The translations under genes were made by a program, and so were the position numbers. Positions 15,227 to 55,448 of a DNA stretch of 64,000 bases are shown in pieces. The stretch's first letter is position 1. Every line of letters starts with the position of its first letter. Origin of the DNA: Nitrospira sp. (GTDB lineage: Bacteria > Nitrospirota > Nitrospiria > Nitrospirales > Nitrospiraceae). Location of the stretch: NCBI GenBank assembly GCA_018242665.1, contig JAFEBL010000045.1, positions 1 through 64,000 of the forward strand, written 5' to 3'. The notes beneath the pieces are model-generated. The model worked only from the letters and a program-made list of their open reading frames with translations, made no database searches and was not told the DNA's origin.

Positions 15227-16431
15227 CACCGTTAGCGCAGCAGCTCGATCTTATACTTCGAGGGATTGTTGAGGTTATTCAGCCCAATGAGCTGGAAGCC
15301 AAGTTGACTCGATCTATCAAGGAAAACCGCCCGCTTCGCGTGAAGGCGGGGTTCGACCCCACGGCGCCGGACCTTCACCTCGGCCATACGGTCTTGATTC
15401 ACAAGCTGAAGCATTTCCAAGACCTCGGGCATCAGGTGATCTTTCTCATCGGCGATTTCACCGGCATGATCGGCGATCCGACGGGACGATCCGAGACCCG
15501 CGTGGCGCTGTCGAAAGAGAAAGTGCTGGAGAACGCCAAGACCTACGAGCGCCAGATTTTCAAAATTTTGGACCCGCACAAGATACAAGTCGAATTTAAT
15601 AGTCGCTGGATGAGTGCCATGACGGCCGATGGCTTGATTGAGCTGAGCGCCCATTACACCGTAGCCCGGATGCTGGAGCGCGAGGACTTCCATAAGCGAT
15701 ATACGGAGAGGACTCCCATCAGCATTCACGAGTTCATGTATCCCTTGATCCAGGGCTACGATTCGGTTGCGCTGAAAGCGGATATTGAATTAGGCGGGAC
15801 GGATCAAAAGTTCAATCTTCTGATGGGTCGGGACCTGCAGCGGGATTACGGACAGGAGGCCCAGGTGGTGATCACCATGCCGTTGCTTGAGGGGACCGAC
15901 GGGGTTCGCAAGATGAGCAAGAGCTTCGGCAATTATATTGCCTTGGAGGACAAGCCCGCGGATATGTTCGGCAAGTTGATGTCGATCAGCGATGTGCTGA
16001 TGCATCGTTACTATGAATTGCTGACGACAGAAGATTTGGTGCGGGTTAAATCAGCCCATCCGATGGAGGCGAAACAAGGCCTGGCTGAGCAGATCGTCGC
16101 TCGGTATCATGGGGATGAGGCGGGTCGTGAGGCCCGTGGCGGATTTCAGCAGAAATTTCAGGCGCGGGAGTTTCCCGATGAGCCGGATGTGCGTGTCAAA
16201 TTATCGGCTCAAGACCTGAAAGGCGGGGAGTCGATCGGGATGGTTGAACTAGTGGCGAAGACGGGTTTGGTCCCAAGCAAGAGTGAGGCGCGGCGGCTCA
16301 TCGTTCAAGGCGGTGTGGAGTTCGATCAGAAGAAACAGATCGATGGGAATGCTATCGTGAAGCTAGAGGTGGGCCGACAGTATCAGATGAAAGTCGGCCG
16401 GCGCAAGTTTGCGCTGATTGAGCGAATATGA
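15223..16431 (+). CDS. tyrS: Tyrosyl-tRNA synthetase
   Basis: Class I synthetase charging tRNA-Tyr. The 402 aa protein shows the HIGH-type motif HLGH (52-55), the KMSKS motif near residues 229-233, and a C-terminal S4 RNA-binding domain ([19 protein letters not shown]). The arrangement matches the TyrZ/short-insert subtype. It starts at GTG 15223, overlapping the comEA stop, so the lpdA-comEA-tyrS run is probably co-transcribed. Confidence 0.96.
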
Positions 16432-16595
16432 TGCTATCTCTGGCATGGATGCGGCGGCATGGTCTAAATGATCGATGGGATGCGGGGACGGATCTGAGGC
16501 CTCCGGTATCTCTTGGTTTCCTATCAGGTTTATTCGAAGCACTGCCGCCCCACTTCTAGTTTCCACCGTCCCAAGGTTCCCAGCGAGGCCCTCCA

Positions 16596-17507
16596 ATGCC
16601 TGCCGGTACCTCAGCTTCTTCACACATTGAACGGTTGTACCATCGGTATCGACGGGGGACGGTTGAAACGCTTCATCCGCTGGTGGTGGCTTATTATCCC
16701 GCCCTGTACCAGACGCACCAGGATGAATACCGGAAGATGATGGAGCTCAGCGCCAAAATGACCGTTGTCGGGCATGCCTGCGCGGAGATCAGCGGATATG
16801 CGTACGATGAACGACGTCAAATGATCGCTCATCTGTTCGGTGGGTGCTGTTTTCTGGCGGATAGCTTCATTGACGATTTCGGTATGGCGGCCGCCGAAGA
16901 GTATCTCGGTCGGCTCGAGCGGCTGTTGACGGACGGGTGGTTTGATGCCAGAACTCCTCGGGAAGAGCTCTTTTATGTCATCATCGCTCGGCTGTTCGCC
17001 GAGCGGAATGTGCTGAACCTGGATCTTCGGCAAGCAATCTTGTTGTTGCTGCGGGCCCAGCAACGTGATGTCAGCTTGCGAGGGGAACTTCGGTCGTTCC
17101 GTCGCACCTCCCGCAGGCAGCAATTGGGTCTCTTGAGAGAAATTGCAAGGAATCGAAGCGGCCACGCAATCCTCGTACTTACGGGATTTCTTGTCCCAAG
17201 AATCCCCTCCGCTGTTCTACGCTATATTTTTTTGGCTGGTTCCATTATCATGCATATCGATGATCACGGAGATCATTATTCGGATCTCCATTATCGGCGA
17301 GTGACCTACATGAATCAGGTATCCTGCCCAGCCAAGACTCTCGGGCGCATCGTTCGGTCGGGGATCCGGGAATTGCTAACGGGACTCCCCGAAGGGAACG
17401 GCCGGAATATTCTGGTTGAATTTCTGACGAAATATTATGTGACACGGCTCAAGAAGCATCGCGCGGTGAAAGCTCAACGTGCGGTTGCGTGGGCCGTGTA
17501 CGAATAG
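16596..17507 (+). CDS. Putative class I isoprenoid synthase-like protein
   Basis: I do not recognise a named family with certainty. The 303 aa protein is mostly helical and carries two acidic DxxxD motifs: LADSFIDDFG (Asp 89, 93, 94) and HIDDHGDHYSD (Asp 222, 226, 230). They are about 133 residues apart. Squalene/phytoene-synthase-type enzymes use two such motifs at similar spacing to bind Mg-diphosphate. This suggests a prenyl-diphosphate substrate, but overall similarity is low and activity is inferred. It is the first gene of a run of unusual genes that also contains a geranylgeranyl-reductase-family flavoprotein at 21435. Confidence 0.6.
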   Translation: MPAGTSASSHIERLYHRYRRGTVETLHPLVVAYYPALYQTHQDEYRKMMELSAKMTVVGHACAEISGYAYDERRQMIAHLFGGCCFLADSFIDDFGMAAAEEYLGRLERLLTDGWFDARTPREELFYVIIARLFAERNVLNLDLRQAILLLLRAQQRDVSLRGELRSFRRTSRRQQLGLLREIARNRSGHAILVLTGFLVPRIPSAVLRYIFLAGSIIMHIDDHGDHYSDLHYRRVTYMNQVSCPAKTLGRIVRSGIRELLTGLPEGNGRNILVEFLTKYYVTRLKKHRAVKAQRAVAWAVYE

Positions 17508-17794
17508 CGGGTCTCATGACGTCCATTGCAGGGTGGGGAGATGCGTTGGCCATTGCCATCCAGCGTTCCCACGTGCAAGGTCGATTGAATGGGGACCAGC
17601 CGCTAATCAGGATCGATGCCCAGCGTGAGGCCGCGCAGGCTCCTTTCCAATTCGATCCGGTTCGCGGCCGCCTTCATCGAAGGGACTGTCATGCCATTCC
17701 GTCCGATGCGCGATCGGCGCTTTTGGGGCGATGGAAGATGGATGCGCATGATGTCCTACTGGCGTGCCCATCCTGTCGCCCCGTGCCACAGGGC

Positions 17795-18214
17795 ATGAGA
17801 CCTGAGGGTGAAAGGATCGAAAGTGTGGAATTCCTCTACGGGGTGGCCTCAATTCTGGGTCAGTTTGGAACGCTGTTACGCGAGCGTGGCAGGGAGTTTC
17901 GAAATTCCGATGAGGGGCGTCAACTTGAGCAACAGGTGGAACGCTTCTATACGCAGCTCGATGTCCAACAACGGCACGTTGTCGACTTGGTCGTGACCTC
18001 ACTGGATCAACTTGTGAAGGCGGTTCAGGAATGTGATCGGAATTTGCAAACGGCCAATAGAACCGGAAAGGGTTCGCAGCCCAACATGAACGGGGGGGGG
18101 CACCCTGGTGGAGCGACTGGCAAGCCTCCCGTGTCCGGTCCCCGTCGCAGCTCCCGTCATGCAAAGACGGGAGCACAATTGAATGGAAGACGACAAGCTC
18201 GAAAGCGTTCGTGA
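17795..18214 (+). CDS. Hypothetical helical protein with basic tail
   Basis: Unrecognised. From the ATG at 17795 the 139 aa product has two predicted amphipathic helices (VEFLYGVASILGQFGTLLRE; QRHVVDLVVTSLDQLVKAVQ) and then a disordered Gly/Pro/Arg/Lys-rich tail ending in RRQARKRS. The frame is open further upstream to an ATG at 17516, but that segment reads poorly as protein, apart from a CPSC motif. The start is therefore uncertain. The basic tail suggests contact with nucleic acid, an acidic protein or membrane. Confidence 0.55.
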   Translation: MRPEGERIESVEFLYGVASILGQFGTLLRERGREFRNSDEGRQLEQQVERFYTQLDVQQRHVVDLVVTSLDQLVKAVQECDRNLQTANRTGKGSQPNMNGGGHPGGATGKPPVSGPRRSSRHAKTGAQLNGRRQARKRS

Positions 18215-18245
18215 TCAGGCACTGTTGACATGAAAGGGTGGGACC

Positions 18246-18452
18246 ATGGCCGCCTCGATGATTCTTCGGATTAAGCTCGGCCCTTTTGTCTCCTTTGAAG
18301 TGGAGGGAGAAAACTGTGAGGAAATTTGCGAATCGCTGAAAGGCTTCGAACAGTTGAACGAGCGGGTTGACGGCATGTGCAGCGATCTCGTGGAGCGGCT
18401 GTACCCTGATGGGTTGGCGGTCGAGTCTGACTCCGAACAGGAGGCGAAGTAA
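18246..18452 (+). CDS. Small acidic hypothetical protein (68 aa)
   Basis: Unrecognised small protein. It starts ILRIKLGPFVSFEVEGEN, which could form a beta hairpin, followed by a helix with a CEEICESL segment and an acidic C-terminus. An AAAGGGTGGG stretch precedes the ATG. The stop TAA shares its last base with the next ATG (TAATG), so translation of the two genes is probably coupled. Confidence 0.6.
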   Translation: MAASMILRIKLGPFVSFEVEGENCEEICESLKGFEQLNERVDGMCSDLVERLYPDGLAVESDSEQEAK

Positions 18453-18883
18453 TGAAGCTGCGCGCACGAATCGGAATGGAGAGCAATCCTGAGCTGCATT
18501 TGCACGCCACCACGGGGCCCGTGGCGTTCAAGACCAAAGCGCGAGGGACCCTGACGGGAAAGGTCAGTGCCATTGCCATCCGAGTCAGCGAAATCCCCAT
18601 TCATGTGGTGGTGCCATTTTCTCGCCGACGTGGCGGCCTTCATCAGATTGCAGCCATCGGAAGTTTCGGGATCAAGGTGGCGCCGTTTTCGGTATCGGTG
18701 GAAGGGGCGGAGTTTCAACTGGTCGGCGTGCTCGGTCAAAAGGACGGAATCAAGACCGCAGTCGAGGGACGAGTGTGTTGCCAGTCCAAGTTAAGGGTAG
18801 AGGGGAAGCTATACGGAAAAATCGCCGGTGCGTCTTTGGAATTGCCTGAGGAGGAATTCGAAGAAGGCGTGGATCCCATGTAA
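18452..18883 (+). CDS. Hypothetical beta-rich protein (143 aa)
   Basis: Unrecognised. The sequence alternates hydrophobic and polar residues throughout (KVSAIAIRVSEIPIHVVVPF, GIKVAPFSVSVEGAEFQLVG), as expected for an all-beta fold. It contains a VCCQS pair of cysteines and an acidic C-terminal tail (PEEEFEEGVDP). No signal peptide is visible. A GGAGGCGAAG ribosome site lies before the ATG, inside the end of the preceding small gene. Confidence 0.6.
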   Translation: MKLRARIGMESNPELHLHATTGPVAFKTKARGTLTGKVSAIAIRVSEIPIHVVVPFSRRRGGLHQIAAIGSFGIKVAPFSVSVEGAEFQLVGVLGQKDGIKTAVEGRVCCQSKLRVEGKLYGKIAGASLELPEEEFEEGVDPM

Positions 18884-18912
18884 GCTGTCGACGTCCACAG
18901 AGCGGAGGGGGT

Positions 18913-19626
18913 ATGTATTCCTCGAGGGATGGAGGGACGCACTGCTGTAAGAATACCAAGGTGGTTCGCCATCTGGTTTGCCAGCACCGGATCGAAGTCG
19001 AGCTTTGGCCCGCCAAGGCTGAAGTGTATTTTTGCGATGAACACGACGTGGATCCGGTGAACACCTACGTCCGGTTTGAAGCAGCGGTGTTCAATGGATC
19101 AACGAGTCGCGTGGAGTGGACGGTTGAGAGGGCTGGGGGAGGGCCGGCAGCCGGGTCGATCGATTCCACCGGCCTGTATGTGGCCCCGCCGAAAGGCCTG
19201 CTTCCCTACAGCCTCACCGACATGGTGGTGGCCACGTCGGCGGAAGACCCGTTGCGGAAGGCCGTCGCGTTCGTGACGGTGATCGGCCATGGGCCGGCAC
19301 CACTTCCACCTGCTCAGATCGAGATCGCTCCAAAACAGATTTATCTCTATTACCCCGAGGGGCAGGACAACGCCTACATGGATCTCAGCAACACCATGCA
19401 GATGTTCCGGGCGTTCCCTCGCCACAGTGATTCGTTGGCGGTGGAATGGCTCGTTGATGGGATGGTCCAGGCGGGAGCCGGACCCGATCCATGGTTTCTC
19501 TATCGCCTGATCGGGACTGGATCGATCAAGACGACAACGGTGACGGCCCGTCTGAAGAATCATCCGCTCGTGGAGGATGCGGCCAAGGTGATTCAGCTAA
19601 ATTATTCCTGGCCCGGCTTGGTGTGA
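18913..19626 (+). CDS. Hypothetical Ig-like domain protein (237 aa)
   Basis: Two tandem beta-sandwich-like segments are suggested: residues about 30-125, where VEWTVERAGGGPAAGSIDSTGLYVAP (in shortened form WTV...GSID..G.Y.AP) follows the bacterial Ig-like pattern, and about 130-235. The N-terminus carries a CC pair and further cysteines (THCCKN, LVCQH, YFCDEH) that could bind metal or crosslink. There is no Sec signal. GGAGGGGGT precedes the ATG. It is probably a structural component of the same cluster; function unknown. Confidence 0.6.
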   Translation: MYSSRDGGTHCCKNTKVVRHLVCQHRIEVELWPAKAEVYFCDEHDVDPVNTYVRFEAAVFNGSTSRVEWTVERAGGGPAAGSIDSTGLYVAPPKGLLPYSLTDMVVATSAEDPLRKAVAFVTVIGHGPAPLPPAQIEIAPKQIYLYYPEGQDNAYMDLSNTMQMFRAFPRHSDSLAVEWLVDGMVQAGAGPDPWFLYRLIGTGSIKTTTVTARLKNHPLVEDAAKVIQLNYSWPGLV

Positions 19627-19670
19627 TGTCTACGGCCATTGTGAGAGAAGCTGACTAGGGAGGGGCGATC

Positions 19671-20369
19671 ATGGGTGACATCAAGATCAAAGAAGCCAAG
19701 AATATTGAAAAGCTGAGAATCGGGGAAGTCAGCCATATCGATCCGCTTGTGATAAAGGAAGTCCAGGCGATTGCGCCGGCTGCAGTCCACATCAAGGAAC
19801 TGAACCATATCGATCCCCTGTCAATCGAATCGCTTCGGGTCAGCGAGGTGCGGAATCTCGACCCGATTCGCGTCGAACAATTCAATGTCACGAACCTGCC
19901 GACCGTGAATCTCTCGATTCGCCAACTGCCGGCTGCCGATCTCAACATTCGCCGGCTGCCTCCAGTCTCAATCGGATTTCATCAAGATCTGTGTCTGCCC
20001 TCGACGTACACCGTGCGAGCCAAGGTATTAGGGGTTGAAGTGTTTCGCGTACACCTGGAGGGTCATACGGCGGTCAAGCCCAGGGCACAATTCCGACGGG
20101 AGCAAGCGCGAGTGCCATCTCAGAGTTTCCCTGATGTGGCGGTGGCCGGCAATCCGGGGATTCCCAGCACGCTCAAACAGGCCTCAGCCCACGTCCGCTC
20201 AACTTGTGTGCACCCCCTAAGCCTCGGGTCTGTTCATCGACATACTGCTCATGGACCCGGACATGCGCCGAGGCTTCATGCGGGGAGTCCGGCCCAGCGA
20301 TTCTCCATGACGAATTCTCAATCCGTAAGCCGTAACGACGGCAGTTCTATAAGCAGCGGGGAGGTGTAA
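19671..20369 (+). CDS. Hypothetical protein built of short I/V-x-I repeats (232 aa)
   Basis: The first about 105 residues consist of degenerate repeats of roughly 10-16 residues with hydrophobic residues at fixed positions and a recurring HIDPL or LDPI motif (VSHIDPLVIKEV, LNHIDPLSIESL, VRNLDPIRVEQF, then NLPTVNLSIRQLPAADLNIR). Such a pattern suggests stacked beta strands. A second region (FHQDLCLPSTYTVRAKVLGV, then FRVHLEGH) looks like a separate domain, followed by a low-complexity Ser/His-rich tail. A GGAGGGG ribosome site is present. The stop and next start form TAATG. Confidence 0.6.
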   Translation: MGDIKIKEAKNIEKLRIGEVSHIDPLVIKEVQAIAPAAVHIKELNHIDPLSIESLRVSEVRNLDPIRVEQFNVTNLPTVNLSIRQLPAADLNIRRLPPVSIGFHQDLCLPSTYTVRAKVLGVEVFRVHLEGHTAVKPRAQFRREQARVPSQSFPDVAVAGNPGIPSTLKQASAHVRSTCVHPLSLGSVHRHTAHGPGHAPRLHAGSPAQRFSMTNSQSVSRNDGSSISSGEV

Positions 20370-20650
20370 TGATGGGACACTCAGGGAACCCCGTATACGG
20401 ATCATGTGCTCACGGCAGACCCGCCATGTGGATCGGCACCACCATCGGTGAGATCGTCCGGTTGGGGGGGGCGGTAGCCCAGCTCGGTTTCGTGGTCGCC
20501 TCGTATGTAATGCGGCGTGGCCGGCGGGGTGATGAGTGTCATGGTGGACGGGGGCGGTCCGATTGCGGTGGCTGCGCCTGTTGTTCGGTTTGTATGCATC
20601 AATGTGTCGAGTGCCGGCCTCGTGTCTATCCAAGGGGGTGTTGCCAGTGA
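20369..20650 (+). CDS. Small Cys-rich protein with hydrophobic helix (93 aa)
   Basis: Unrecognised. It has a hydrophobic helix near residues 20-48 (IGTTIGEIVRLGGAVAQLGF) followed by an Arg-rich turn and a tail with ten cysteines in about 40 residues (SDCGGCACCSVCMHQCVEC, ending GCCQ). The tail could coordinate metal or be crosslinked. The layout, helix then cysteine tail, repeats in the protein at 24272. It is coupled to both neighbours by TAATG and GTGA overlaps. Confidence 0.55.
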   Translation: MMGHSGNPVYGSCAHGRPAMWIGTTIGEIVRLGGAVAQLGFVVASYVMRRGRRGDECHGGRGRSDCGGCACCSVCMHQCVECRPRVYPRGCCQ

Positions 20651-21396
20651 CCCGCAAAGCACGAATCGGTAAGACGACAAGGAGCGCGGGGCGCACTTCC
20701 GACAAGCAGGCGCGCGGGACAACGGCAGGGCAGGCCGCTGAGGACAAGTCTTCGAAGGCCTCGTCAAGTACCGCCGCGGGCACGGCTCAGGAACATCGTC
20801 CATTCCTTCAGACGGAGCAGCTCGGAGCGACTCTCGCGAAGGGGCTCGATTTGGCCGAAGCCAGTTTGAGCCTTGGTTTGACGTTGATGACGCGGTTGGG
20901 CTCCATGGTACAGGAGTCGGTCATGGAAAAGGTGGGAGAACATTTCCCGGGACCGGACTCGCCCGTACAGTCCGATGGAGGGCAGGACAGGCAAGCGACT
21001 GCTGCGCCGACTCCATCTCCATCCCCAGCTGCATCCGGAGTTCCGTCGGGGGACGATGTCGCCTATAGCATCAACAATCGGCTACCGCTCTTTCCCGGAC
21101 AACCGGTGTCCGTATCGTTTTCTATTAACAATGATTCTGAAGAGGGGGCGAAACGGGTCAAACTTCGGGTGGAAGGTTTTGTCGGTCAGATCAGTGCCGT
21201 GCGCCTTCCGAGCGAGGGCTTCAGCGTGAAACCCGGCATATGTGCCATTGCCCCGATGGACTTCGAAAAATTTATGCTGAAGGGTACATTGCCCTCCGAT
21301 ATTCCCTCCGACATCTACATTGGGAAAGTGGTGGTGACAGCTGATCACAACTTGGAAATTCCTGTCCGGCTGGTGGTGGGGCCTCCAACGCCATAA
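20647..21396 (+). CDS. Hypothetical protein: disordered N-terminus, helix, C-terminal beta domain (249 aa)
   Basis: From the GTG at 20647 (preceded by AAGGGGG) the product has a Lys/Ser/Ala-rich disordered N-terminus, then an amphipathic helix around residues 58-95 (GLDLAEASLSLGLTLMTRLG). A Pro/Ser-rich linker follows. The last about 100 residues form a beta-sandwich-like domain (PGQPVSVSFSINNDSEEG, VGQISAVRLPSEGFSV). The C-terminal part resembles CARDB/Ig-like adhesive folds in style only. The helix resembles one in the protein at 24272. Confidence 0.6.
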   Translation: MTRKARIGKTTRSAGRTSDKQARGTTAGQAAEDKSSKASSSTAAGTAQEHRPFLQTEQLGATLAKGLDLAEASLSLGLTLMTRLGSMVQESVMEKVGEHFPGPDSPVQSDGGQDRQATAAPTPSPSPAASGVPSGDDVAYSINNRLPLFPGQPVSVSFSINNDSEEGAKRVKLRVEGFVGQISAVRLPSEGFSVKPGICAIAPMDFEKFMLKGTLPSDIPSDIYIGKVVVTADHNLEIPVRLVVGPPTP

Positions 21397-21434
21397 TCTG
21401 CCGGGAACAGAAAAAGGAGCCTGAGGAATTGGGC

Positions 21435-22901
21435 GTGAATAAGCTGTACGACGTGATCGTAGTCGGCGCGGGTCCCGGCGGGAGCAGTGCGGCGACCTTT
21501 GCAGCCAAACAAGGGTTGTCGACCTTGCTGGTCGACCGGGCTGATTTTCCCCGGGACAAAGTCTGCGGCGATGGGTTGACCCCTCAGGCCATCTATTGGT
21601 TGGATCGTCTGGGCTGTGTTGACGAAGTCTTGACCCTCACCAAATCGTGTATCAAGACGTGCGATCTCTTCATCAACGGTGAATTGGTTCTCTCAGGAGG
21701 ATTCCCGCCGAATACCCCTTATCCTGATTTTTGTATTCTGCTTGATCGCCGACGGTTCGACCATGTGCTCGTTAAACATGCGGTGGCGTCAGGGGCCGAG
21801 TTTCTACCTCAGTGCACGGTCCGGTCCATTTGCCGGAATCTGGATCACATCGATGTGGTGACCGATGTCGGCAGGCAGGCGACGGTCTTGAAAGCCCGTG
21901 TGGTTATCGGTGCCGACGGCGTGAGTTCGGTGGTGTCGCGTTCCATTGGAAATGTGTTGAACAACGGCGCAACAGCGATTTCGCTCAGGACGTACTATCG
22001 GAATGTCAGGCTGGACGGCGCCCAGATCAAAGTGTATTTCGATACACGCTTTTTCCCAGGGTATGGGTGGGTGTTTGTGGATGATGAGGGATTTGCCAAT
22101 ATTGGGTTAGGATATGCCTTCGACAAGACCTTCCCTATGCAATCCCAGCTCAAACGGACTTTCAATGTGTTTGTGCAGGAGGAATTAGGGAATCTGCTTG
22201 CCGGGGCGGACCGCTGCGGGCCGGTGGCGGGTGGAGTGGTGTCATTCTATCGCCCCAAGGCGATCGTGGATGATCGGGTCATGCTCGTGGGCGATGCCGC
22301 AAACCAGGCTGATCCGTTAAATGGTGGGGGCATTCATAAGGCGATGGAGAGTGCGTATTTGGCTGCGCAGGCCGCCGGACGGGCGGTGGCCTCCGGCGAT
22401 TATTCGGCGCAGGCCCTCCGGTGGTATCAGGAGCGCTGGGAAGAACAGTACGAACTGGATTGGCGGACAGCCGAGCTGTTCTTGTCGATTGCGAAAAATC
22501 CCGATCTGAGGGATGTGTGCCTGTTTGTGTTGGCCGGCATCGCACGGCTGACGACCTCGGACCGGCAATTCCAAGAATTTTGTAGTGGGGTGTTTAGCGG
22601 AGTCATCTCGCAGAGTTCCTGCCTGGTTCCGCAGGCACTCGTTCATGCCCTGCCGCGGGATCCTCATGCATGGGCCAGCCTCCTCGAGATGGACCGGCAG
22701 GGAATGTTGCGGGGACCTGCGGGGGTTCTTGCCGAGGCATCAAAGCACCTGGCTCAAGCGTCGGGGCGGTTGATACAGAAGCCCTGGCAAAGCCTGGATT
22801 GGGGAATGGAAGTAGCGGCGAAGTTTCTCCGATTGGTTAATGGACAGATTGGCGGACCGATCTCGCCGCAACGGCCGCTCGCGGCCATACCGGTTTCGTG
22901 A
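21435..22901 (+). CDS. FAD-dependent oxidoreductase, geranylgeranyl reductase family
   Basis: Family members reduce double bonds of prenyl chains (chlorophyll, archaeal lipids, quinones) or act as related monooxygenases. The 488 aa protein has the N-terminal FAD motif VVGAGPGGSSAA, the family motif DKVCGDGLTPQA, a central GADGVSS and the second FAD motif LVGDAANQADPLNGGGI. GTG 21435 is chosen because GAGGA lies 8 nt upstream; TTG at 21429 is an alternative. It is the clearest enzyme in this cluster. With the DxxxD protein at 16596 it hints at isoprenoid modification. The substrate is unknown. Confidence 0.85.
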   Translation: MNKLYDVIVVGAGPGGSSAATFAAKQGLSTLLVDRADFPRDKVCGDGLTPQAIYWLDRLGCVDEVLTLTKSCIKTCDLFINGELVLSGGFPPNTPYPDFCILLDRRRFDHVLVKHAVASGAEFLPQCTVRSICRNLDHIDVVTDVGRQATVLKARVVIGADGVSSVVSRSIGNVLNNGATAISLRTYYRNVRLDGAQIKVYFDTRFFPGYGWVFVDDEGFANIGLGYAFDKTFPMQSQLKRTFNVFVQEELGNLLAGADRCGPVAGGVVSFYRPKAIVDDRVMLVGDAANQADPLNGGGIHKAMESAYLAAQAAGRAVASGDYSAQALRWYQERWEEQYELDWRTAELFLSIAKNPDLRDVCLFVLAGIARLTTSDRQFQEFCSGVFSGVISQSSCLVPQALVHALPRDPHAWASLLEMDRQGMLRGPAGVLAEASKHLAQASGRLIQKPWQSLDWGMEVAAKFLRLVNGQIGGPISPQRPLAAIPVS

Positions 22902-22951
22902 GAGAACTGGCTGAACCGGGTGGCGAACACAGACAAGAAAGGACGACCATC

Positions 22952-23146
22952 ATGGCTTCAGTTTTCGCACCGGTCAACAAGCTCATTCATGAAGCCTCGA
23001 CCCAACTGCTGGCCAACAACATACCCAAGCAAATCTCGGATCTGGTCACGACGGCTGTGGGCTCGAGCTTCCATATTGTCGAAGATGTGCTCAAGATTGT
23101 CGGAGAGTTGACCAAGGAAGACAGTCCGAACGGAGGAGGCGCGTGA
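22952..23146 (+). CDS. Small helical hypothetical protein (64 aa)
   Basis: Unrecognised. It reads as two amphipathic helices (VNKLIHEASTQLLANNIPKQ; SSFHIVEDVLKIVGELTKED) and a short Gly-rich end, with no cysteine. GAAAGGACG precedes the ATG. The stop overlaps the next start as TGATG, so it is co-translated with the beta-rich protein that follows. Confidence 0.6.
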   Translation: MASVFAPVNKLIHEASTQLLANNIPKQISDLVTTAVGSSFHIVEDVLKIVGELTKEDSPNGGGA

Positions 23147-23580
23147 TGGCTCATTATACTTCGTCAGGATGCCGGGGATTGTCAGTATGGCATGCGACGG
23201 GCTGTTGCGGGGGCTGGTATCCCGTACCCGTTCCTCTTCACCCGGTGGGGTTCCACGGAGGGATCGAATCAGCAGGTATTGTGGTGGTACTCGAGGCGGT
23301 GGCGGATAGTACGACAACGACGAAGAAAGTCTTTGTCGGGGGGACGACTCCCGTGCGGCTGACGTTAGAGTATCTGCCGGATGACGGGGCGACGGCTCCT
23401 TCCGTGGCCGTGACCGTCGTGGAAGGGGGGAGTTCGACATCGACGTGGAACGAGACAGCGATCACGCCCGGGTATCACGTGAAGGCCGAATGGGTCTCGG
23501 TGGCGCCGGGCTCGCTGGTGACGTTGGAGGTGGCCGAGGCCAGCGCGCGCCTGCGATGGTGTGAAACCGTCTGTTGCTAA
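23146..23580 (+). CDS. Hypothetical beta-rich protein ending in a WC-E-CC motif, paralogue A
   Basis: The 144 aa product has an N-terminal Cys/Gly region (SSGCRGLSVWHATGCCGGW) and a C-terminal beta-rich domain (VFVGGTTPVRLTLEYLPDDG) ending in ARLRWCETVCC. The C-terminal about 75 residues match the end of the next gene: an FVGG start, LxxEY, a central strand pair, and AR-x-RWCE at the end. The two are tandem paralogues. No signal peptide is seen. Confidence 0.65.
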   Translation: MAHYTSSGCRGLSVWHATGCCGGWYPVPVPLHPVGFHGGIESAGIVVVLEAVADSTTTTKKVFVGGTTPVRLTLEYLPDDGATAPSVAVTVVEGGSSTSTWNETAITPGYHVKAEWVSVAPGSLVTLEVAEASARLRWCETVCC

Positions 23581-23617
23581 CTGCCATGATGTGGCGGGTG
23601 AAAGGAGCGGTGCTGTC

Positions 23618-24247
23618 ATGCATGCAGGAAATGCGTTTTATTCAGGGGCTTCGGTTCATCCGAGTCCGGCTCATGGTGGAGGCGGGGGCATGTCCGGCAC
23701 TTCGGGGTTTTGCCTGGGCTGTGCGCATCCCAGGGTGAAGTGCTGTTGCTGGATCAGGGAGTGTCGGAAGGAATCCAAAGAGTTGTTGGTACAGGCCACC
23801 GTCGGCTTAGATCAAAAGGTGGAAGGGAGCAGCGATGCCCTGTCTCATGTCAAAGTGCTGGCACCGATGATGGCCTATATGAACATCGGGCAATCGGCTG
23901 ACGGCCAGTCTTTTGACGCCAAATCGGCACAGGGGCTTGAGTCGGCGGCCGCAGCGGGCAAGCTGGGCCCAGCGGGGATCGGGACAGCCTTTGTCGGCGG
24001 CGGCTGCTGTGTGCATTTGTCGATCGAGTACACACCGACCAATCCAGCCTCCAACCAGCCGGCCTTGGTGTTTGTGCTCGTGCGGGATAGTGAAGGGACT
24101 CTCTTGGCCTGGGTCAAGCAGGTTACCGCTCAGGGCGGGTATCAAATCAAAGAAGGCATTATCACGACAAAGCCGGGGGCGCATCTGACGGTGTTGGTGC
24201 TCAACGTGACAGCTCGCGTCCGCTGGTGTGAGGTGTTCAGCTGTTAA
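23618..24247 (+). CDS. Hypothetical beta-rich protein ending in a WC-E-C motif, paralogue B
   Basis: The 209 aa product starts with a Gly/Ser/His-rich stretch, then a cysteine knot-like segment (GFCLGCAHPRVKCCCWIREC), a linker, and a C-terminal beta domain (FVGGGCCVHLSIEYTPTNP) ending in ARVRWCEVFSC. The domain is paralogous to that of the preceding gene. The ATG at 23618 has GAAAGGAGCGG upstream. Shared cysteine placement suggests a conserved metal site or disulfides. Confidence 0.65.
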   Translation: MHAGNAFYSGASVHPSPAHGGGGGMSGTSGFCLGCAHPRVKCCCWIRECRKESKELLVQATVGLDQKVEGSSDALSHVKVLAPMMAYMNIGQSADGQSFDAKSAQGLESAAAAGKLGPAGIGTAFVGGGCCVHLSIEYTPTNPASNQPALVFVLVRDSEGTLLAWVKQVTAQGGYQIKEGIITTKPGAHLTVLVLNVTARVRWCEVFSC

Positions 24248-24271
24248 CGTCGAACGAAAAGGAGATGCATC

Positions 24272-24793
24272 ATGGCTGAACGACGGACACCCAAAGAGTC
24301 GCCGTCCGGGTCGAAGGGCGATCAAGGGGGTGAGGCGAAGGCAGAATTTCGTGCGTATAAAAATCGGATTGAACAAGCGGCTACCTCGAGTCAGGCCTCT
24401 GCCGCTTTTCAAGCAGGCTCTCCAGTCTGGCCTCAGATGGGCGTTGGTCCCAGGCCTGGGCATTCTATGGGGCTCCCACGGCCTGGGGTAGGTATGCCAT
24501 CCTATCCAGTCGCATCGGATTTACAGGAACGGGATACGGCTGCGACTCTCCTCGGTGGCCTTGGCACCACGCTGCGCCTGGCAGTGGATCTGCTGAATGT
24601 CGGATTAGCGGGCGGGACGCGTGTGCTCCAGGAATTGGCTTCATCAGGTTTTGGGCCGCATGACAGCTGCGGCTGTCATGGCTGCGGGAATTGTTGCAGT
24701 GGGTGCTGTGAGCCCTGCTGCCAGCCAAGTTGTTGCCAACCGTCCTGTTGTGGTTGTGACTCCTGTACGCCGAGCGTCGGGACCTGTTGCTGA
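24272..24793 (+). CDS. Hypothetical protein with extreme Cys-rich C-terminal tail (173 aa)
   Basis: The N-terminal half is polar, then Pro/Gly/Met-rich. An amphipathic helix follows around residues 92-125 (TLLGGLGTTLRLAVDLLNVG). The last 44 residues hold 17 cysteines in CC and CxxC patterns (GNCCSGCCEPCCQPSCCQPS). Such a tail resembles metallothioneins or crosslinked coat proteins in composition, but no family is recognised. An AAAAGGAGA ribosome site precedes the ATG. The tail's DNA also lies inside the open frame of the following amylase gene. Confidence 0.65.
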   Translation: MAERRTPKESPSGSKGDQGGEAKAEFRAYKNRIEQAATSSQASAAFQAGSPVWPQMGVGPRPGHSMGLPRPGVGMPSYPVASDLQERDTAATLLGGLGTTLRLAVDLLNVGLAGGTRVLQELASSGFGPHDSCGCHGCGNCCSGCCEPCCQPSCCQPSCCGCDSCTPSVGTCC

Positions 24794-26363
24794 CTGTCCG
24801 GAGCTGTATGAGGAGAGTGATGCGAGGACGGGTTGCCCCGAGACAGAGAGCCCGAGCCCATTCGTTGGATTCCACGGACCAGCTCATAAGATCGTAACCT
24901 TGGGGAACGCGGTGAGGTTTCGTCGGGCCGTGACCGCTTCGTGCCGGTGGGTGCCGGACGCGGTCATGTACCAAATTTTTGTCGATCGCTTTTCGAGGGT
25001 TCCGCAGTCGCGTTCCCACCCATCGTATGCCGATTGGGGATCGCGACCGACGCGAACTCATTTTATGGGAGGTACCCTTCGGGGGATTACTTCCCGGCTC
25101 ACGTATCTCCAGGACCTCGGTGTCAATCTCCTCTACTTGACACCTATCTTTCTTGCCTCATCCAATCACCGGTACAACGTCTTTGATTATTACCGGATCG
25201 ATCCTCGTCTTGGGAGCCTGGATGATTTCGATGCGTTGATCGAGCAAGCCCATGGCCGGCACATCCGGATTATTCTCGACGGGGTCTTCAATCATTGTGG
25301 CCGTGGATTTTTCCCATTCTATGATGTGATGGAGAACGGCCGGCATTCAGTCTATTGCGACTGGTTTCATCTGCGGCGTTTCCCCGTGGATGCTTACGGG
25401 GAGGCCCATTACCGAGGGTGGCAGGGGCGGCCGCTCATGCCGATTCTCAATTTGGCCAATCGCCAAGTTCAAACGTATTTTCTGAATGTCGCCCGCTATT
25501 GGACGGCGCGTGGGATTGATGGGTGGCGGCTGGACGCGGTGGGGGAAGTGCCTGGTCATGCGTTCTGGAAAGCATTTCGTCGAACGGTGAGACAGGTCAA
25601 CCCGGAAGCCTATGTGCTGGGGGAATTTTGGGGGGATGGCAAGGGTTGGCTCAAGTCCGATCAGTTTGATGGCGGGACCAATTATGTGTGGCGAGATACT
25701 GTGCTTGAGTTCGTCGTTCATCGTACGATTCGGGCGGATGAGTTTGCCAGGCGGCTCCTTTCTTTGGCTATGCGATACCCACGGGATCAAACGAGAGGGA
25801 TGGCCAATCTGCTCGGCTCCCATGACACGCCCCGGCTTTGGACGGTGGCGAAGGGAGACGCGGCATCGGTACGGCAGGCGTTGGTGCTGCAATTCAGCTT
25901 TCCCGGCATTCCCGCATTGTACTATGGCGATGAGATTGGACTGGAGGGAGGCGAGGATCCTGCCAACCGCTGTGCGATGCGATGGAAAGCTGGTTCTCCG
26001 AAGACAGATCTGCGCGCCGACATTCGACGGCTGGTCGCGATGCGACAGGAATCGCGAGTGTTACGGTATGGGGACTGGCACACGGCATTTGTCGACGCAG
26101 CGTTGAATCTCTGTGTGTTCAGTCGGAGGCACGGTGCGAGTCAGGCTCTCATCGTGGTGCATAATGATCGCCGACCCTTCTCCGGTACCGTTGCCCTTTC
26201 CCTTGCAGAAGGCCGTCACCGCATTCCGGCGCGATGGAAAGATCTCCTGTCACAGCAAGTGTATACGGTAGAGAAGAGCCGGCTGCACTTACGCAATCTT
26301 CCTCCTCGCGCCAGTCTTGTGTTGATCCCCGAACGACATCGCCGAACGACTTCCTTGACTTAG
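24660..26363 (+). CDS. GH13 alpha-amylase family glycosidase
   Basis: Hydrolyses or rearranges alpha-glucans. GH13 regions are clear: DGVFNHCG (region I), GWRLDAV with the nucleophile Asp (about 292), VLGEFW with the acid Glu (about 322), and GSHDTPR with the third carboxylate. ALYYGDEIGLEGGEDP is typical of neopullulanase/cyclomaltodextrinase types. The start is unclear. The ATG at 24660 gives a signal-peptide-like N-terminus (MTAAAVMAAGIVAVGAVSPA) but overlaps the upstream Cys-rich gene by 134 nt. Later candidates are a TTG near 24900 and a GTG near 24912. Secretion is therefore unproven. Confidence 0.85.
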   Translation: MTAAAVMAAGIVAVGAVSPAASQVVANRPVVVVTPVRRASGPVADCPELYEESDARTGCPETESPSPFVGFHGPAHKIVTLGNAVRFRRAVTASCRWVPDAVMYQIFVDRFSRVPQSRSHPSYADWGSRPTRTHFMGGTLRGITSRLTYLQDLGVNLLYLTPIFLASSNHRYNVFDYYRIDPRLGSLDDFDALIEQAHGRHIRIILDGVFNHCGRGFFPFYDVMENGRHSVYCDWFHLRRFPVDAYGEAHYRGWQGRPLMPILNLANRQVQTYFLNVARYWTARGIDGWRLDAVGEVPGHAFWKAFRRTVRQVNPEAYVLGEFWGDGKGWLKSDQFDGGTNYVWRDTVLEFVVHRTIRADEFARRLLSLAMRYPRDQTRGMANLLGSHDTPRLWTVAKGDAASVRQALVLQFSFPGIPALYYGDEIGLEGGEDPANRCAMRWKAGSPKTDLRADIRRLVAMRQESRVLRYGDWHTAFVDAALNLCVFSRRHGASQALIVVHNDRRPFSGTVALSLAEGRHRIPARWKDLLSQQVYTVEKSRLHLRNLPPRASLVLIPERHRRTTSLT

Positions 26364-26402
26364 CGCGGACGCCGGCGTAGGATTCGCATTCTCGATCTCG
26401 GG

Positions 26403-26477
26403 GCGGGCGTAGCTCAGTGGTAGAGTCCTTGCTTCCCAAGCAAGTTGTCGTGGGTTCAAATCCCATCGCCCGCTCCA
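26403..26477 (+). tRNA. tRNA-Gly(CCC)
   Basis: The acceptor arms GCGGGCG (26403-26409) and CGCCCGC pair fully. The D-arm GCTCAGTGGTAGAGT, an anticodon stem CTTGC/GCAAG with loop TTCCCAA (anticodon CCC), the T-arm with GTTCAAATC, and an encoded CCA end are present. It marks the end of the unusual gene run. Confidence 0.93.
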
Positions 26478-28560: not shown

Positions 28561-28836
28561 ATGCGCTCCCGTTTTACTGACCAAAAAAAACAACAGATTC
28601 TGAAAGAAGGATGCCTGAAAGGCGGCATCGAGCGCGTGTGCAGGAAGTACGGCATTTCTGTGAGCACGTTCTATCGCTGGAGAAGCCGTCTAGGCGTCAG
28701 AGGTTCAGACCCGATCGTTCATCTGCGTTCTCTGCAACAGGAAAATCGACGGCTCAAGCATCGGGTGGCTGAACTCTCGTTGGACTACACCATTCTTCGA
28801 TCGGCATTGATCAACGATAGAGAAAGTGAATGTTGA
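28561..28836 (+). CDS. Orphan IS3/IS911 OrfA-like HTH protein (91 aa)
   Basis: It matches the OrfA type of IS3-family transposases: an N-terminal HTH (RSRFTDQKKQQILKEG, ERVCRKYGISVSTFYRWRSR) followed by a leucine-zipper-like coil (LRSLQQENRRLKHRVAELSL). Length is normal for OrfA. No OrfB with a DDE domain follows, and no terminal inverted repeats are visible. It is therefore a solo remnant or a co-opted DNA-binding protein. It sits just upstream of the polysaccharide operon. Confidence 0.75.
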   Translation: MRSRFTDQKKQQILKEGCLKGGIERVCRKYGISVSTFYRWRSRLGVRGSDPIVHLRSLQQENRRLKHRVAELSLDYTILRSALINDRESEC

Positions 28837-28873: not shown

Positions 28874-28999
28874 ATGAGCATGGGGCTGGATGCCATGTCG
28901 CTGCCCCGGCGAACGTCGACCGACGTGTCTCGCACACTAGGGACCGATCGGGCTTCCTGTGCCGCGCCTCTGTCCTCGAACAGAGGAGGCATGGCATGA
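28874..28999 (+). CDS. 41-codon leader ORF coupled to the polysaccharide operon
   Basis: A strong ribosome site (ACAGGAGGTCCCA) precedes ATG 28874. The frame encodes 41 residues (starting MSMGLDAMSLPRRTS) and stops in ATGA overlap with the next start at 28996. A second AGAGGAGG lies just before that start. The peptide has no recognisable motif. The layout suggests translational coupling or leader control. Confidence 0.45.
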   Translation: MSMGLDAMSLPRRTSTDVSRTLGTDRASCAAPLSSNRGGMA

Positions 29000-30726
29000 A
29001 AGCAGTGATTATGGATGGCGCGCCGTGGGCCGGAACGATGTTGGCGTTTCCTGTCGGACACGAATTGTTGATCCATCATTTGCTGTCTCTGTTGAGGAGA
29101 CACGGTGTCCGTGAGGTGGCGATCGTCTCCTGTGAGCAGGACCCGCATATCCGTGAGTTGGCTTGTCAGGCCGGTGCCTCGCAAAACATGACGGTATTGT
29201 GGCGAACGGAGGCCATCTACCGTGGCACTGCCGGCAGTGTAGAGGTCGTGAAGGACTTTCTCGATACGCCAACCTTCCTGGGCATACATGCCAACGTGTA
29301 TGTGCGGGATGTGGATTTCACGGCAGCCTTGTCCTTTCACCGCCAGCATCACGCGAGCATCACGTTGGTCGTGCAACGCCGGGAGGGGGCTGACGATGCT
29401 CTGGAAACCGTGGAAATGGATCCGGCCGGATTGGTGTCCCGGGTCAATATTCTGCATTGGTCGAGAAATCGTCGCAGCCGGCTTGCTCCTTGCGGACTCT
29501 ATGTGTTCGACCGCGACGTGCTCTCACAGATCCCTCGCGATGAATACTTTGACGTGAATGAGCAACTCGTGCCCCTGATTCGAAGCCGGGGCGGCGTCAT
29601 TCGTGCGTATGAGATAGACGGAGGGGTGCACGCCATCCAGGGGCCCGAAGATTTTCTTTGGTTGAACCGGGAAATCCTCTTGAAGGATCTGCCAAGCCCT
29701 GCTCGCGGCGATGGCCACCAGCCTGGCCTAGATGAGATTGTCATAGGTGAGAATGCGGACATTTCCCCCCATTCGTTCTTGCTTGGCCCTCTGGTTATCG
29801 GACCGAATTGTATCGTGGAGGACTACGTTCAGCTGATTGGACCGGCGGTGATCGGGCCGACTTCGCACTTAGAAAAGGGAAGTCTGGTACGGGAAAGTGT
29901 GCTGCGATCCGGCACGAGGGTGCGAGGCAATGCCCGAGTGGAATATTCGGTAGTCGGCGGAGATGAAACGGTGCCTGAGGGGATGCGGCTGCGCAGCACC
30001 TATTGGACCACCGTGAATCCGGACATGCGCGAATCACGGGGTGCGATCGAGCACAGCCCTTCCAGTCACATGTTGCCTCGTCTCCGGCAGACGCCACGTG
30101 CGGTGATCACGTCAGGGGGCAAGCGGGTGCGATCGGTCTATGAGGGCTTGAAATCGGTCATCGACCGGACGGGCGCCGCGATCGGCATAGTTCTGGTCGG
30201 CCCCCTTCTGCTCCTCATTGCCGCCGCAGTCAAATTGGATTCTCCCGGGCCGATATTTTTTTCGCAAAAGCGATGCGGAAAAGATGGCCGAGAATTCTGG
30301 ATGCATAAGTTTCGAACGATGGTGCCGGATGCGGAGCAACGGCAACAGGATTTGAAAGCCCGCAATAGCGTCGATGGACCGATGTTCAAGTTGGAAGAAG
30401 ATCCGCGCATCACTCGGGTCGGCAAGTTGCTTCGTAAAACGAGTCTCGATGAATTGCCGCAATTGCTGAATGTGTTGCGCGGGGACATGAGCCTGGTGGG
30501 GCCTCGCCCGCTTGCGTATGACGAAATGAAGTTCTGCCCTACATGGCGGGATGCGCGCCTCACGGTTCATCCCGGCTTGACCGGACTTTGGCAGGTGAAG
30601 GCACGCAATCGCAATCGATTCTCAGAGTGGATCCGATATGACCTCGAGTACGTTCGTCGGCGCTCATTGTTGCTGGATATGTACATTCTGATCCGGACCG
30701 CCCGCGTGCTGTTGAAAGGAGTGTGA
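28996..30726 (+). CDS. Fused nucleotidyltransferase-like / beta-helix / phosphoglycosyltransferase
   Basis: The 576 aa protein has three parts. Residues 1-230 resemble sugar-nucleotide pyrophosphorylases but lack the GGxGTRLxP loop (it reads MKAVIMDGAPWAGTM), so this part is probably inactive in nucleotidyl transfer. Residues about 250-335 form hexapeptide left-handed beta-helix turns (VIGENADISPHSFLLGPLVI). Residues about 375-576 are a WcaJ/ExoY-type phosphoglycosyltransferase with a membrane helix, KFRTM, KTSLDELPQL and LVGPRPL. The last part would start repeat-unit assembly on undecaprenyl phosphate at the inner membrane. Confidence 0.85.
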   Translation: MKAVIMDGAPWAGTMLAFPVGHELLIHHLLSLLRRHGVREVAIVSCEQDPHIRELACQAGASQNMTVLWRTEAIYRGTAGSVEVVKDFLDTPTFLGIHANVYVRDVDFTAALSFHRQHHASITLVVQRREGADDALETVEMDPAGLVSRVNILHWSRNRRSRLAPCGLYVFDRDVLSQIPRDEYFDVNEQLVPLIRSRGGVIRAYEIDGGVHAIQGPEDFLWLNREILLKDLPSPARGDGHQPGLDEIVIGENADISPHSFLLGPLVIGPNCIVEDYVQLIGPAVIGPTSHLEKGSLVRESVLRSGTRVRGNARVEYSVVGGDETVPEGMRLRSTYWTTVNPDMRESRGAIEHSPSSHMLPRLRQTPRAVITSGGKRVRSVYEGLKSVIDRTGAAIGIVLVGPLLLLIAAAVKLDSPGPIFFSQKRCGKDGREFWMHKFRTMVPDAEQRQQDLKARNSVDGPMFKLEEDPRITRVGKLLRKTSLDELPQLLNVLRGDMSLVGPRPLAYDEMKFCPTWRDARLTVHPGLTGLWQVKARNRNRFSEWIRYDLEYVRRRSLLLDMYILIRTARVLLKGV

Positions 30727-51623: not shown

Positions 51624-51745
51624 CTCTCTTCCATGCGCGTCAGGCGCTGATCGTCTCGTAACGGGAATGCCGCGGGGGCGCTCGCTTCCGAGTCCCCTTG
51701 ACAAGATCGCCCATCCTCTCCTACAGTTTGCCTCGTTTCACGACA

Positions 51746-51958
51746 CCTCGGGTCAAGGGAAGAGGGTGCGATACCCTCGCGGTCCCGCCGCTGTAAATGG
51801 GGACGAAACCCGCAGGCGCCACTATCTGGCGAAGCCGTCAGTGATCAGCGTTCAGCACTCAGGCACATCCTGATCGCTGAAGGTTGTGAGCTGACCGCTT
51901 CAAAGACGGGAAGGCGCGGGGAGTAGGACGAACCATAAGCCAGAAGACCTGCCCGGGG
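51746..51958 (+). promoter_or_regulatory. Cobalamin riboswitch 1 (upstream of btuFCD)
   Basis: The conserved core reads GGGTGCGATACCCTCGCGG, then CCCGCCGCTGTAAATGGGGA, and ends with the B12 box AGCCAGAAGACCTGCC (51938-51953). Closing stem CCTCGGG (51746-51752) pairs with CCCGGGG (51952-51958) with one wobble. The variable arm (about 51837-51894) is a long hairpin of TCAGC/GCTGA repeats. It controls the corrinoid importer, probably lowering expression when cobalamin binds. Confidence 0.9.
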
Positions 51959-52051
51959 AAGACCCTTTATTCCCTCGTGGGCTGGGGAATAGGCGAGGAT
52001 GATGATGCGGGTAATCCTCAGGGTTCCACGTTGGCCCTGGGGATTTTTTAT

Positions 52052-55097: not shown

Positions 55098-55192
55098 TGA
55101 ATGCGTGTGTTGCGAGAGGGGTTCGCGCCCGGCCCCCTCGTGTGAAGTGAAGGGGCGAGTGTATCACTGGAGAATGGAGTATCAGGAAGACG

Positions 55193-55408
55193 CCGTCAGC
55201 GTCGGGGAAGATGGTGCAAATCCATCACGGTGCCGCCACTGTAAGCGGGGAGTGACTCTGCAAGACGCCACTGTTGGGAGAAGCTGTGAGCCATCAGCGG
55301 TCAGCTATCAGTCAGAAGCTGATTACTGAAAGCTGAGTGCTGTGAGCTTTTTCGGATGGGAAGGCGCAGAGACGCAATGATCCGCAAGTCAGGAGACCCA
55401 ACTGACGG
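55193..55408 (+). promoter_or_regulatory. Cobalamin riboswitch 2 (upstream of btuB and cob operon)
   Basis: Closing stem CCGTCAG (55193-55199) pairs perfectly with CTGACGG (55402-55408). The core shows GGTGCAAATCCATCACGG, then GCCGCCACTGTAAGCGGGGA, and the B12 box AAGTCAGGAGACCCA (55386-55400). The variable arm (about 55281-55351) is a long hairpin of TCAGC/GCTGA repeats similar to that in riboswitch 1. It ends 40 nt before btuB. Confidence 0.92.
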
Positions 55409-55448
55409 AAGGTACGACTGAACCCTTCGAGCGAAAGGGAATGTCAGG

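Follow-up and report, generated by a model that had tools for sequence, protein, structure and literature searches.

We identified a block of fourteen co-directional genes (g01 to g14, in order) in a Nitrospira sp. contig (JAFEBL010000045.1, assembly GCA_018242665.1) and firmly show that it is one conserved genetic unit that is gained and lost as a whole. The stretch of DNA analysed, here called the window, comprises positions 1 to 64,000 of the contig, and its host is a 4.06 Mb genome of the phylum Nitrospirota, in which some nitrite-oxidiser-type bacteria carry the block. All fourteen genes were found in identical order in distant Nitrospirales, mostly with 42–72% identity (tblastn; four other genome records, some of which are cut by contig ends), so that the order is not due to chance. 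Pairwise ratios of nonsynonymous to synonymous substitution rates among these records were 0.04–0.39 throughout, for short and long genes alike, and all fourteen genes are under purifying selection.

Protein searches detected the cluster in two further records and in two genomes that belong to a different family of the host's taxonomic order. In that other family, the carriers accounted for 4 of the 49 genomes, all of them in one genus. Profiles of g01, g09 and g11/g12 each matched the same 3 of 396 Nitrospirota genomes (for g09, counting close matches), and matches to g06 were confined to cluster carriers. The sole exception to this co-occurrence was one more distant g09 relative in genome G089, located in a different isoprenoid locus. 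An earlier note on this DNA had proposed a single system and named scattered, unlinked homologues as the observation that would refute it; the genes instead occur together in the same genomes, and the idea passed its own test. It is well supported by the co-occurrence of marker genes and by the sites of whole-block insertion and deletion described below. Sensitive searching covered Nitrospirota only, and other phyla were covered solely by an exact 8-residue-word scan with g06, an insensitive method that returned only Nitrospirota matches; relatives beyond this phylum may exist.

In approximately 20 genomes of the genus Nitrospira, tRNA-Gly(ccc) and its promoter come close behind tyrS, an arrangement that represents an empty site. 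Most of the tyrS orthologues at these sites are 80–88% identical. In the present genome, the spacer between tyrS and tRNA-Gly is occupied by the whole cluster. The neighbours of the cluster in the other genus are a Rieske/flavodoxin-like gene on one side and a glucose-6-phosphate-dehydrogenase-type gene on the other (both named from sequence). Genome G094 lacks the region from within the Rieske-like gene to the dehydrogenase, and a truncated Rieske/flavodoxin-like gene remains as a scar (L058). In G089, a different, overlapping stretch is absent and only a 3' remnant of g14 is left (L059). These are two independent deletions of the whole cluster. The identities of g01 (64%) and g09 (67%) to the copies in genome G081 are close to those of the host isoprenoid enzymes (50–64%). 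Because the cluster and the host isoprenoid genes have diverged to a similar degree between the two families, transfer and old inheritance with loss are inseparable; a simple recent transfer is not proven, and these identities appear compatible both with old inheritance followed by many losses and with transfer from an unsampled donor.

Several other origins were considered and rejected. Insertion as a transposon with target duplication was not supported, as the borders share no direct repeat of at least 8 nucleotides (nt). A phage or satellite origin was dismissed: the cluster has neither an integrase nor a terminase and matched no PHROG family, and g01, g06 and g12 had no match among viral contigs. 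There was no PADLOC match indicative of a defence system, and no plasmid-borne relatives were found for g01 or g06, with one insignificant match for g12. We also observed that in loci L014 and L015 (approximately 2750–2830), the tRNA-Gly(ccc) behind tyrS is broken in its anticodon stem, where CTTCCCAAGC gives way to unrelated sequence. ARAGORN detected no tRNA at this interrupted site, which possibly contains an integrated element or an intron.

All fourteen genes were verified at positions 16596–26363 on the + strand. The earlier note's description of about fourteen tightly packed, co-directional genes agrees with our gene calls and spacing, and its coordinates coincide with the borders of the block between tyrS and tRNA-Gly. 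The features of the block and its borders are as follows.

Left border, 16432..16595, no strand assigned: from the 3' end of tyrS (which ends at 16431) to g01; probable leader/promoter region
g01, 16596..17507, + strand: 303 amino acids; divergent trans-isoprenyl-diphosphate-synthase fold (predicted), motifs D89-SFI-DD94 and D222-DHGD226-HYSD230
g02, 17489..18214, + strand: 241 amino acids; H-x3-C...C-x2-C element, C-terminal half helical by appearance; no family
g03, 18246..18452, + strand: 68 amino acids; small protein, 71–75% conserved; no family
g04, 18452..18883, + strand: 143 amino acids; beta-rich by appearance; no family
g05, 18913..19626, + strand: 237 amino acids; Ig-like/beta domains by appearance; no family
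g06, 19671..20369, + strand: 232 amino acids; N-terminal short repeats I-D-P-L-x-I-x-x-L-x-I, highly conserved; no family
g07, 20369..20650, + strand: 93 amino acids; amphipathic Gly-rich helix, then a Cys-rich tail (11.8% Cys) ending in CCQ, or in SCC in orthologues
g08, 20647..21396, + strand: 249 amino acids; K/R-rich N-terminus, amphipathic helix, Pro-rich linker and C-terminal beta part; phasin-like layout
g09, 21429..22901, + strand: 490 amino acids; geranylgeranyl-reductase-family flavin adenine dinucleotide (FAD) protein with a long C-terminal extension
g10, 22952..23146, + strand: 64 amino acids; amphipathic helical protein
g11, 23143..23580, + strand: 145 amino acids; Cys/His-containing N-terminus, beta-sandwich domain, C-terminus RWCETVCC; paralogue of g12
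g12, 23618..24247, + strand: 209 amino acids; Cys-rich N-terminus, beta-sandwich at residues 119–207 (model), C-terminus RWCEVFSC
g13, 24272..24793, + strand: 173 amino acids; amphipathic Gly-rich helix, Cys-rich tail (9.8% Cys) ending in SVGTCC
g14, 24912..26363, + strand: GH13 glycosidase, cyclomaltodextrinase/maltodextrin-glucosidase-like; probable start GTG 24912
Right border, 26364..26402, + strand: promoter of tRNA-Gly(ccc), whose gene starts at 26403

The intergenic gaps from g01 to g14 are, in order, -19, +31, -1, +29, +44, -1, -4, +32, +50, -4, +37, +24 and approximately +118 nt, and clear Shine-Dalgarno-like sequences are present upstream of most genes. No sigma-70 match was found in the left border. 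Comparison with orthologues reset the starts of g08 (GTG 20647 instead of 20536), g10 (ATG 22952) and g12 (ATG 23618) and placed the start of g14 most likely at GTG 24912, which removes an overlap of g14 with g13.

By its predicted fold and motif positions, g01 reads as a divergent trans-isoprenyl diphosphate synthase. It had no Pfam (E≤1), NCBIfam or PDB sequence match and did not match the PF00348 family profile, and hhalign gave probabilities below 1% against the host PF00348 and PF00494 proteins. An AlphaFold model (four orthologues) was all-helical with a predicted template modelling score (pTM) of 0.67; its details were not used, because the mean predicted local distance difference test (pLDDT) was only 64. 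The best 50 matches in the VIA comparison were prenyl synthases (Z 14.9–16.5), and Foldseek retrieved isoprenoid synthases (E 3.7e-3, probability 1.0), with terpene synthases ranked high. The first motif is DSFIDD at 89–94, with Ser in place of the second Asp, compared with DDVVDD at 94–99 in the host polyprenyl synthase. The second motif, DDHGD at 222–226 (within DDHGDHYSD, 222–230), corresponds to DDTLD at 221–225 in the host enzyme and DDHLD in L067. Thus, g01 has both the all-helical isoprenoid-synthase fold and the second aspartate motif DDxxD. By the type and spacing of its motifs, g01 is closer to polyprenyl synthases than to squalene/phytoene synthases, and assignment to the ComQ type was rejected as the second aspartate motif is intact rather than degenerate.

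The second isoprenoid-type enzyme, g09, is a member of the geranylgeranyl-reductase family of flavoproteins by family cut-off (TIGR02032, 191.7 bits against a curated cut-off of 158.8, the match reaching residue 315; FAD_binding_3, E 6.8e-22). It also scores against monooxygenases such as QhpG, and its substrate may be an isoprenoid. Both enzymes are among the most conserved proteins of the cluster (64–68%). The last gene, g14, belongs to GH13 (PF00128, E 2.5e-58) and resembles cyclomaltodextrinases; its score against the cyclomaltodextrinase equivalog NF041090 (336.9 bits) is below the cut-off of 540.

Eleven of the fourteen proteins had no credible Pfam match, and for those among them that were additionally scanned against NCBIfam, PHROGs and PADLOC, these scans produced no credible match either. 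They are amphipathic, beta-rich or Cys-rich, with up to 12% Cys. Cys content is 11.8% in g07, 9.8% in g13, 4.8% in g12 and 4.1% in g11, compared with 1.27% in the 44 other open reading frames (ORFs) of the window. Proteins g11 and g13 end in CC, g12 in SC and g07 in CCQ, and orthologues end in SCC, CC or SC; only 1 of the 44 ORFs outside the cluster ends in Cys. By hydropathy, no cluster protein has a transmembrane- or Sec-like segment (maximal 19-residue Kyte-Doolittle mean, 1.6). The composition reported by the earlier note was borne out: isoprenoid-type enzymes (two, of which g01 is supported by its predicted fold and the positions of its motifs and g09 by the family cut-off), a GH13 enzyme, and mostly short proteins of no recognised family and with no Sec-like segment by hydropathy.

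Among the small proteins, g02 (42–45% identity in orthologues) contains an H-x3-C...C-x2-C element that is a possible Zn site, and the N-terminal part of g06 is 72–76% identical in orthologues. A bactofilin assignment for g04 was rejected (sub-threshold E of 0.053 in one of five members). The Gly-rich amphipathic helices of g07, g08 and g13 are weakly alike (hhalign E 6e-4 and 1e-3). Proteins g11 and g12, both beta-sandwiches with Cys residues in the N-terminal part, are paralogues (hhalign probability 98.2%). In the g12 model (pTM 0.59, domain pLDDT 64–86), the beta-sandwich spans residues 119–207 and matched a phage capsid protein (4dmi, Z 8.3, the best match), the Ena2A fibre (9i0y, Z 8.2, rank 2) and many others. 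As 893 of the 1000 chains compared gave Z of at least 5, these modelled fold matches are at the level of common beta-sandwiches.

We infer that the cluster may be responsible for a lipid or glucan inclusion, a coat or a surface layer. Our tentative preference, held with rather less than even confidence, is that it is a self-contained operon, patchily distributed across Nitrospirales, that builds a cytoplasmic isoprenoid-protein particle. Isoprenyl diphosphates would be condensed by g01, an activity suggested by its fold and motifs, and the chain would then be saturated by g09. The product would be sequestered by the amphipathic proteins g07, g08, g10 and g13 together with the beta-rich or repeat-containing g04, g05, g06, g11 and g12, and the Cys-rich segments may crosslink or bind metal, thereby holding the coat together. 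An alpha-glucan could be trimmed by g14 near or inside the particle. An inclusion is weakly favoured, given the amphipathic helices, the lack of Sec-like segments and what is found at a parallel locus of G089.

That locus (C1:532400-538100; L094 12403-18123) is a second isoprenoid locus in a genome that has lost the cluster. The g09 relative there aligns with g09 over 410 residues at 30% identity, a span that takes in the C-terminal extension. It adjoins an amine-oxidase-type flavoprotein, a 254-residue protein, a canonical polyprenyl synthase and an ADC-domain protein; IspH, an IDI-like NUDIX protein and a FadL-type porin are located nearby. The 254-residue protein appears to have the layout of g08, with a basic N-terminus, an amphipathic helix and a C-terminal beta part. 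The locus modestly supports the idea that this reductase subtype has an isoprenoid-lipid role alongside amphipathic proteins.

Several observations weigh against the particle. No known phasin or coat family was matched in the cluster, the comparison of its amphipathic helices gave hhalign probabilities of only 21–29%, and the 254-residue protein of G089 has no detectable homology to g08 (hhalign probability 0.4). The cluster contains no lipid-transferring enzyme that would account for the fate of the reduced isoprenoid, and the particle does not explain the role of g14. In a reducing cytoplasm, moreover, a Cys-rich protein more commonly binds metal than forms a disulfide-linked coat. A metal-handling assembly is one alternative, in which the Cys/His-rich g02, g07, g11, g12 and g13 store or detoxify a soft metal and the lipid enzymes play only an incidental part. 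The abundance of Cys and His and the H-x3-C...C-x2-C element of g02 are consistent with it, but no metal transporter, ATPase or sensor is present in the cluster and the isoprenoid enzymes are among its most conserved genes; we regard it as very unlikely. The high ranking of terpene synthases in the Foldseek search of g01 and the presence of tailoring flavoenzymes within the family of g09 could point to a specialised-metabolite cluster, with g01 and g09 making a diffusible terpenoid and the small proteins acting as carriers or in resistance or regulation. This explanation is distinctly improbable: eleven of the proteins are conserved yet belong to no recognised enzyme family, the cluster lacks a transporter, a regulator and a transferase, and the second g01 motif is of the chain-elongation type.

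The remaining alternatives concern the Cys residues. Proteins g11 and g12 could polymerise through intermolecular disulfides, like the endospore appendage (Ena) subunits of Bacillus, into a surface or extracellular fibre or coat, with the isoprenoid enzymes providing an anchor lipid. Inter-chain disulfides hold Ena rings together (PMC12921279), and the Cys-rich N-termini of g11 and g12 and the second-ranked match of the g12 model to Ena2A subunits would fit such an arrangement. This match is at the level of common beta-sandwiches, Pfam DUF3992 was not matched, and the cluster has neither Sec-like segments nor a secretion gene, which leaves the fibre unlikely. Alternatively, g01, or its product with a further transferase, may prenylate the C-terminal Cys of g07, g11, g12 and g13, with g09 saturating the chain later. 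Four of the fourteen proteins have such conserved Cys-containing ends, the cluster has no other acceptor enzyme, and ComQ, a prenyl-synthase-like enzyme, modifies a peptide (PMC5331326). We compared these C-termini (CC, SC, CCQ) with CaaX, CC and CxC motifs; the motif alone proves nothing. With its full second aspartate motif, unlike the degenerate one of ComQ, g01 looks like a chain-making synthase, which disfavours ComQ-type prenylation. No protein prenyltransferase (alpha/beta subunit) Pfam match was found among the fourteen proteins, and the C-terminus of g12 is modelled at the end of a strand. Prenylation of this kind thus appears highly doubtful. The least probable proposal is a lipid-protein organelle encoded by one mobile 14-gene unit, whose structural proteins would be anchored by isoprenyl groups on C-terminal Cys residues; a dedicated prenyl synthase and reductase would make these groups.

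The significance of the cluster is that two isoprenoid enzymes and eleven families without library matches are joined in a single genetic unit, and that this unit is directly testable, since its ten kilobases could be moved to a laboratory strain. If an isoprenoid-filled or -anchored assembly is indeed formed, it would represent a novel type of bacterial compartment or inclusion, in organisms on which nitrification largely depends, and would add a prenyl-synthase lineage invisible to sequence searches; a Cys-anchored organelle would imply S-prenylation of proteins in a prokaryote.

Additional observations were made elsewhere in the window. An IS3-type transposase OrfA (Pfam HTH_Tnp_1) is present at 28561–28836, near the tRNA-Gly/LuxR region. 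A single ORF at 28996–30726 has an unusual triple combination of a nucleotidyltransferase domain, hexapeptide repeats and a bacterial sugar transferase. Two cobalamin riboswitches were found at 51733–51970 and 55180–55420, with approximately 3.2 kb between them.

Searches of the literature turned up no such cluster, and we know of no system that combines these parts. Phasin-coated lipid inclusions (polyhydroxyalkanoate (PHA) granules and wax/triglyceride bodies) would be comparable in having small amphipathic proteins without Sec signals beside enzymes for a hydrophobic product. However, the cluster had no phasin, PHA synthase or acyltransferase matches in Pfam, its enzymes are of isoprenoid type and many of its proteins are beta- or Cys-rich. 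Endospore appendages (Ena, DUF3992) are comparable in their beta-sandwich subunits with Cys-bearing N-terminal extensions, and the g12 model gives a weak fold match (Z 8.2, the level of common beta-sandwiches), but there is no sequence match and the operon context differs; Nitrospirota are not known to form spores. Similar to ComQ, which prenylates a Trp of ComX, g01 has a prenyl-synthase fold, and its possible substrates g11 and g12 keep a Trp near the C-terminus (RWCE). However, the second aspartate-rich motif of ComQ is degenerate while its first is kept (PMC5331326), whereas g01 keeps DDxxD, and the Trp of g11 and g12 is the 7th residue from the end, whereas ComQ accepts the 2nd to 4th in vitro (PMC5331326). 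Sequence searches gave no encapsulin or HK97-capsid match (Pfam, fourteen proteins; PHROGs, ten proteins), and the structural proteins of the cluster comprise several small unrelated families, unlike those of family 2 encapsulins; the latter carry terpene cyclase or polyprenyl transferase cargo (PMC8346489) and also place an isoprenoid-synthase-fold enzyme beside putative structural proteins. Compared with trans-isoprenyl diphosphate synthases (PF00348), g01 lacks detectable sequence similarity and has DSFIDD rather than DDxxD as its first motif, but it resembles them in predicted fold (Z up to 16.5) and in motif positions (89–94 and 222–226, compared with 94–99 and 221–225 in the host enzyme).

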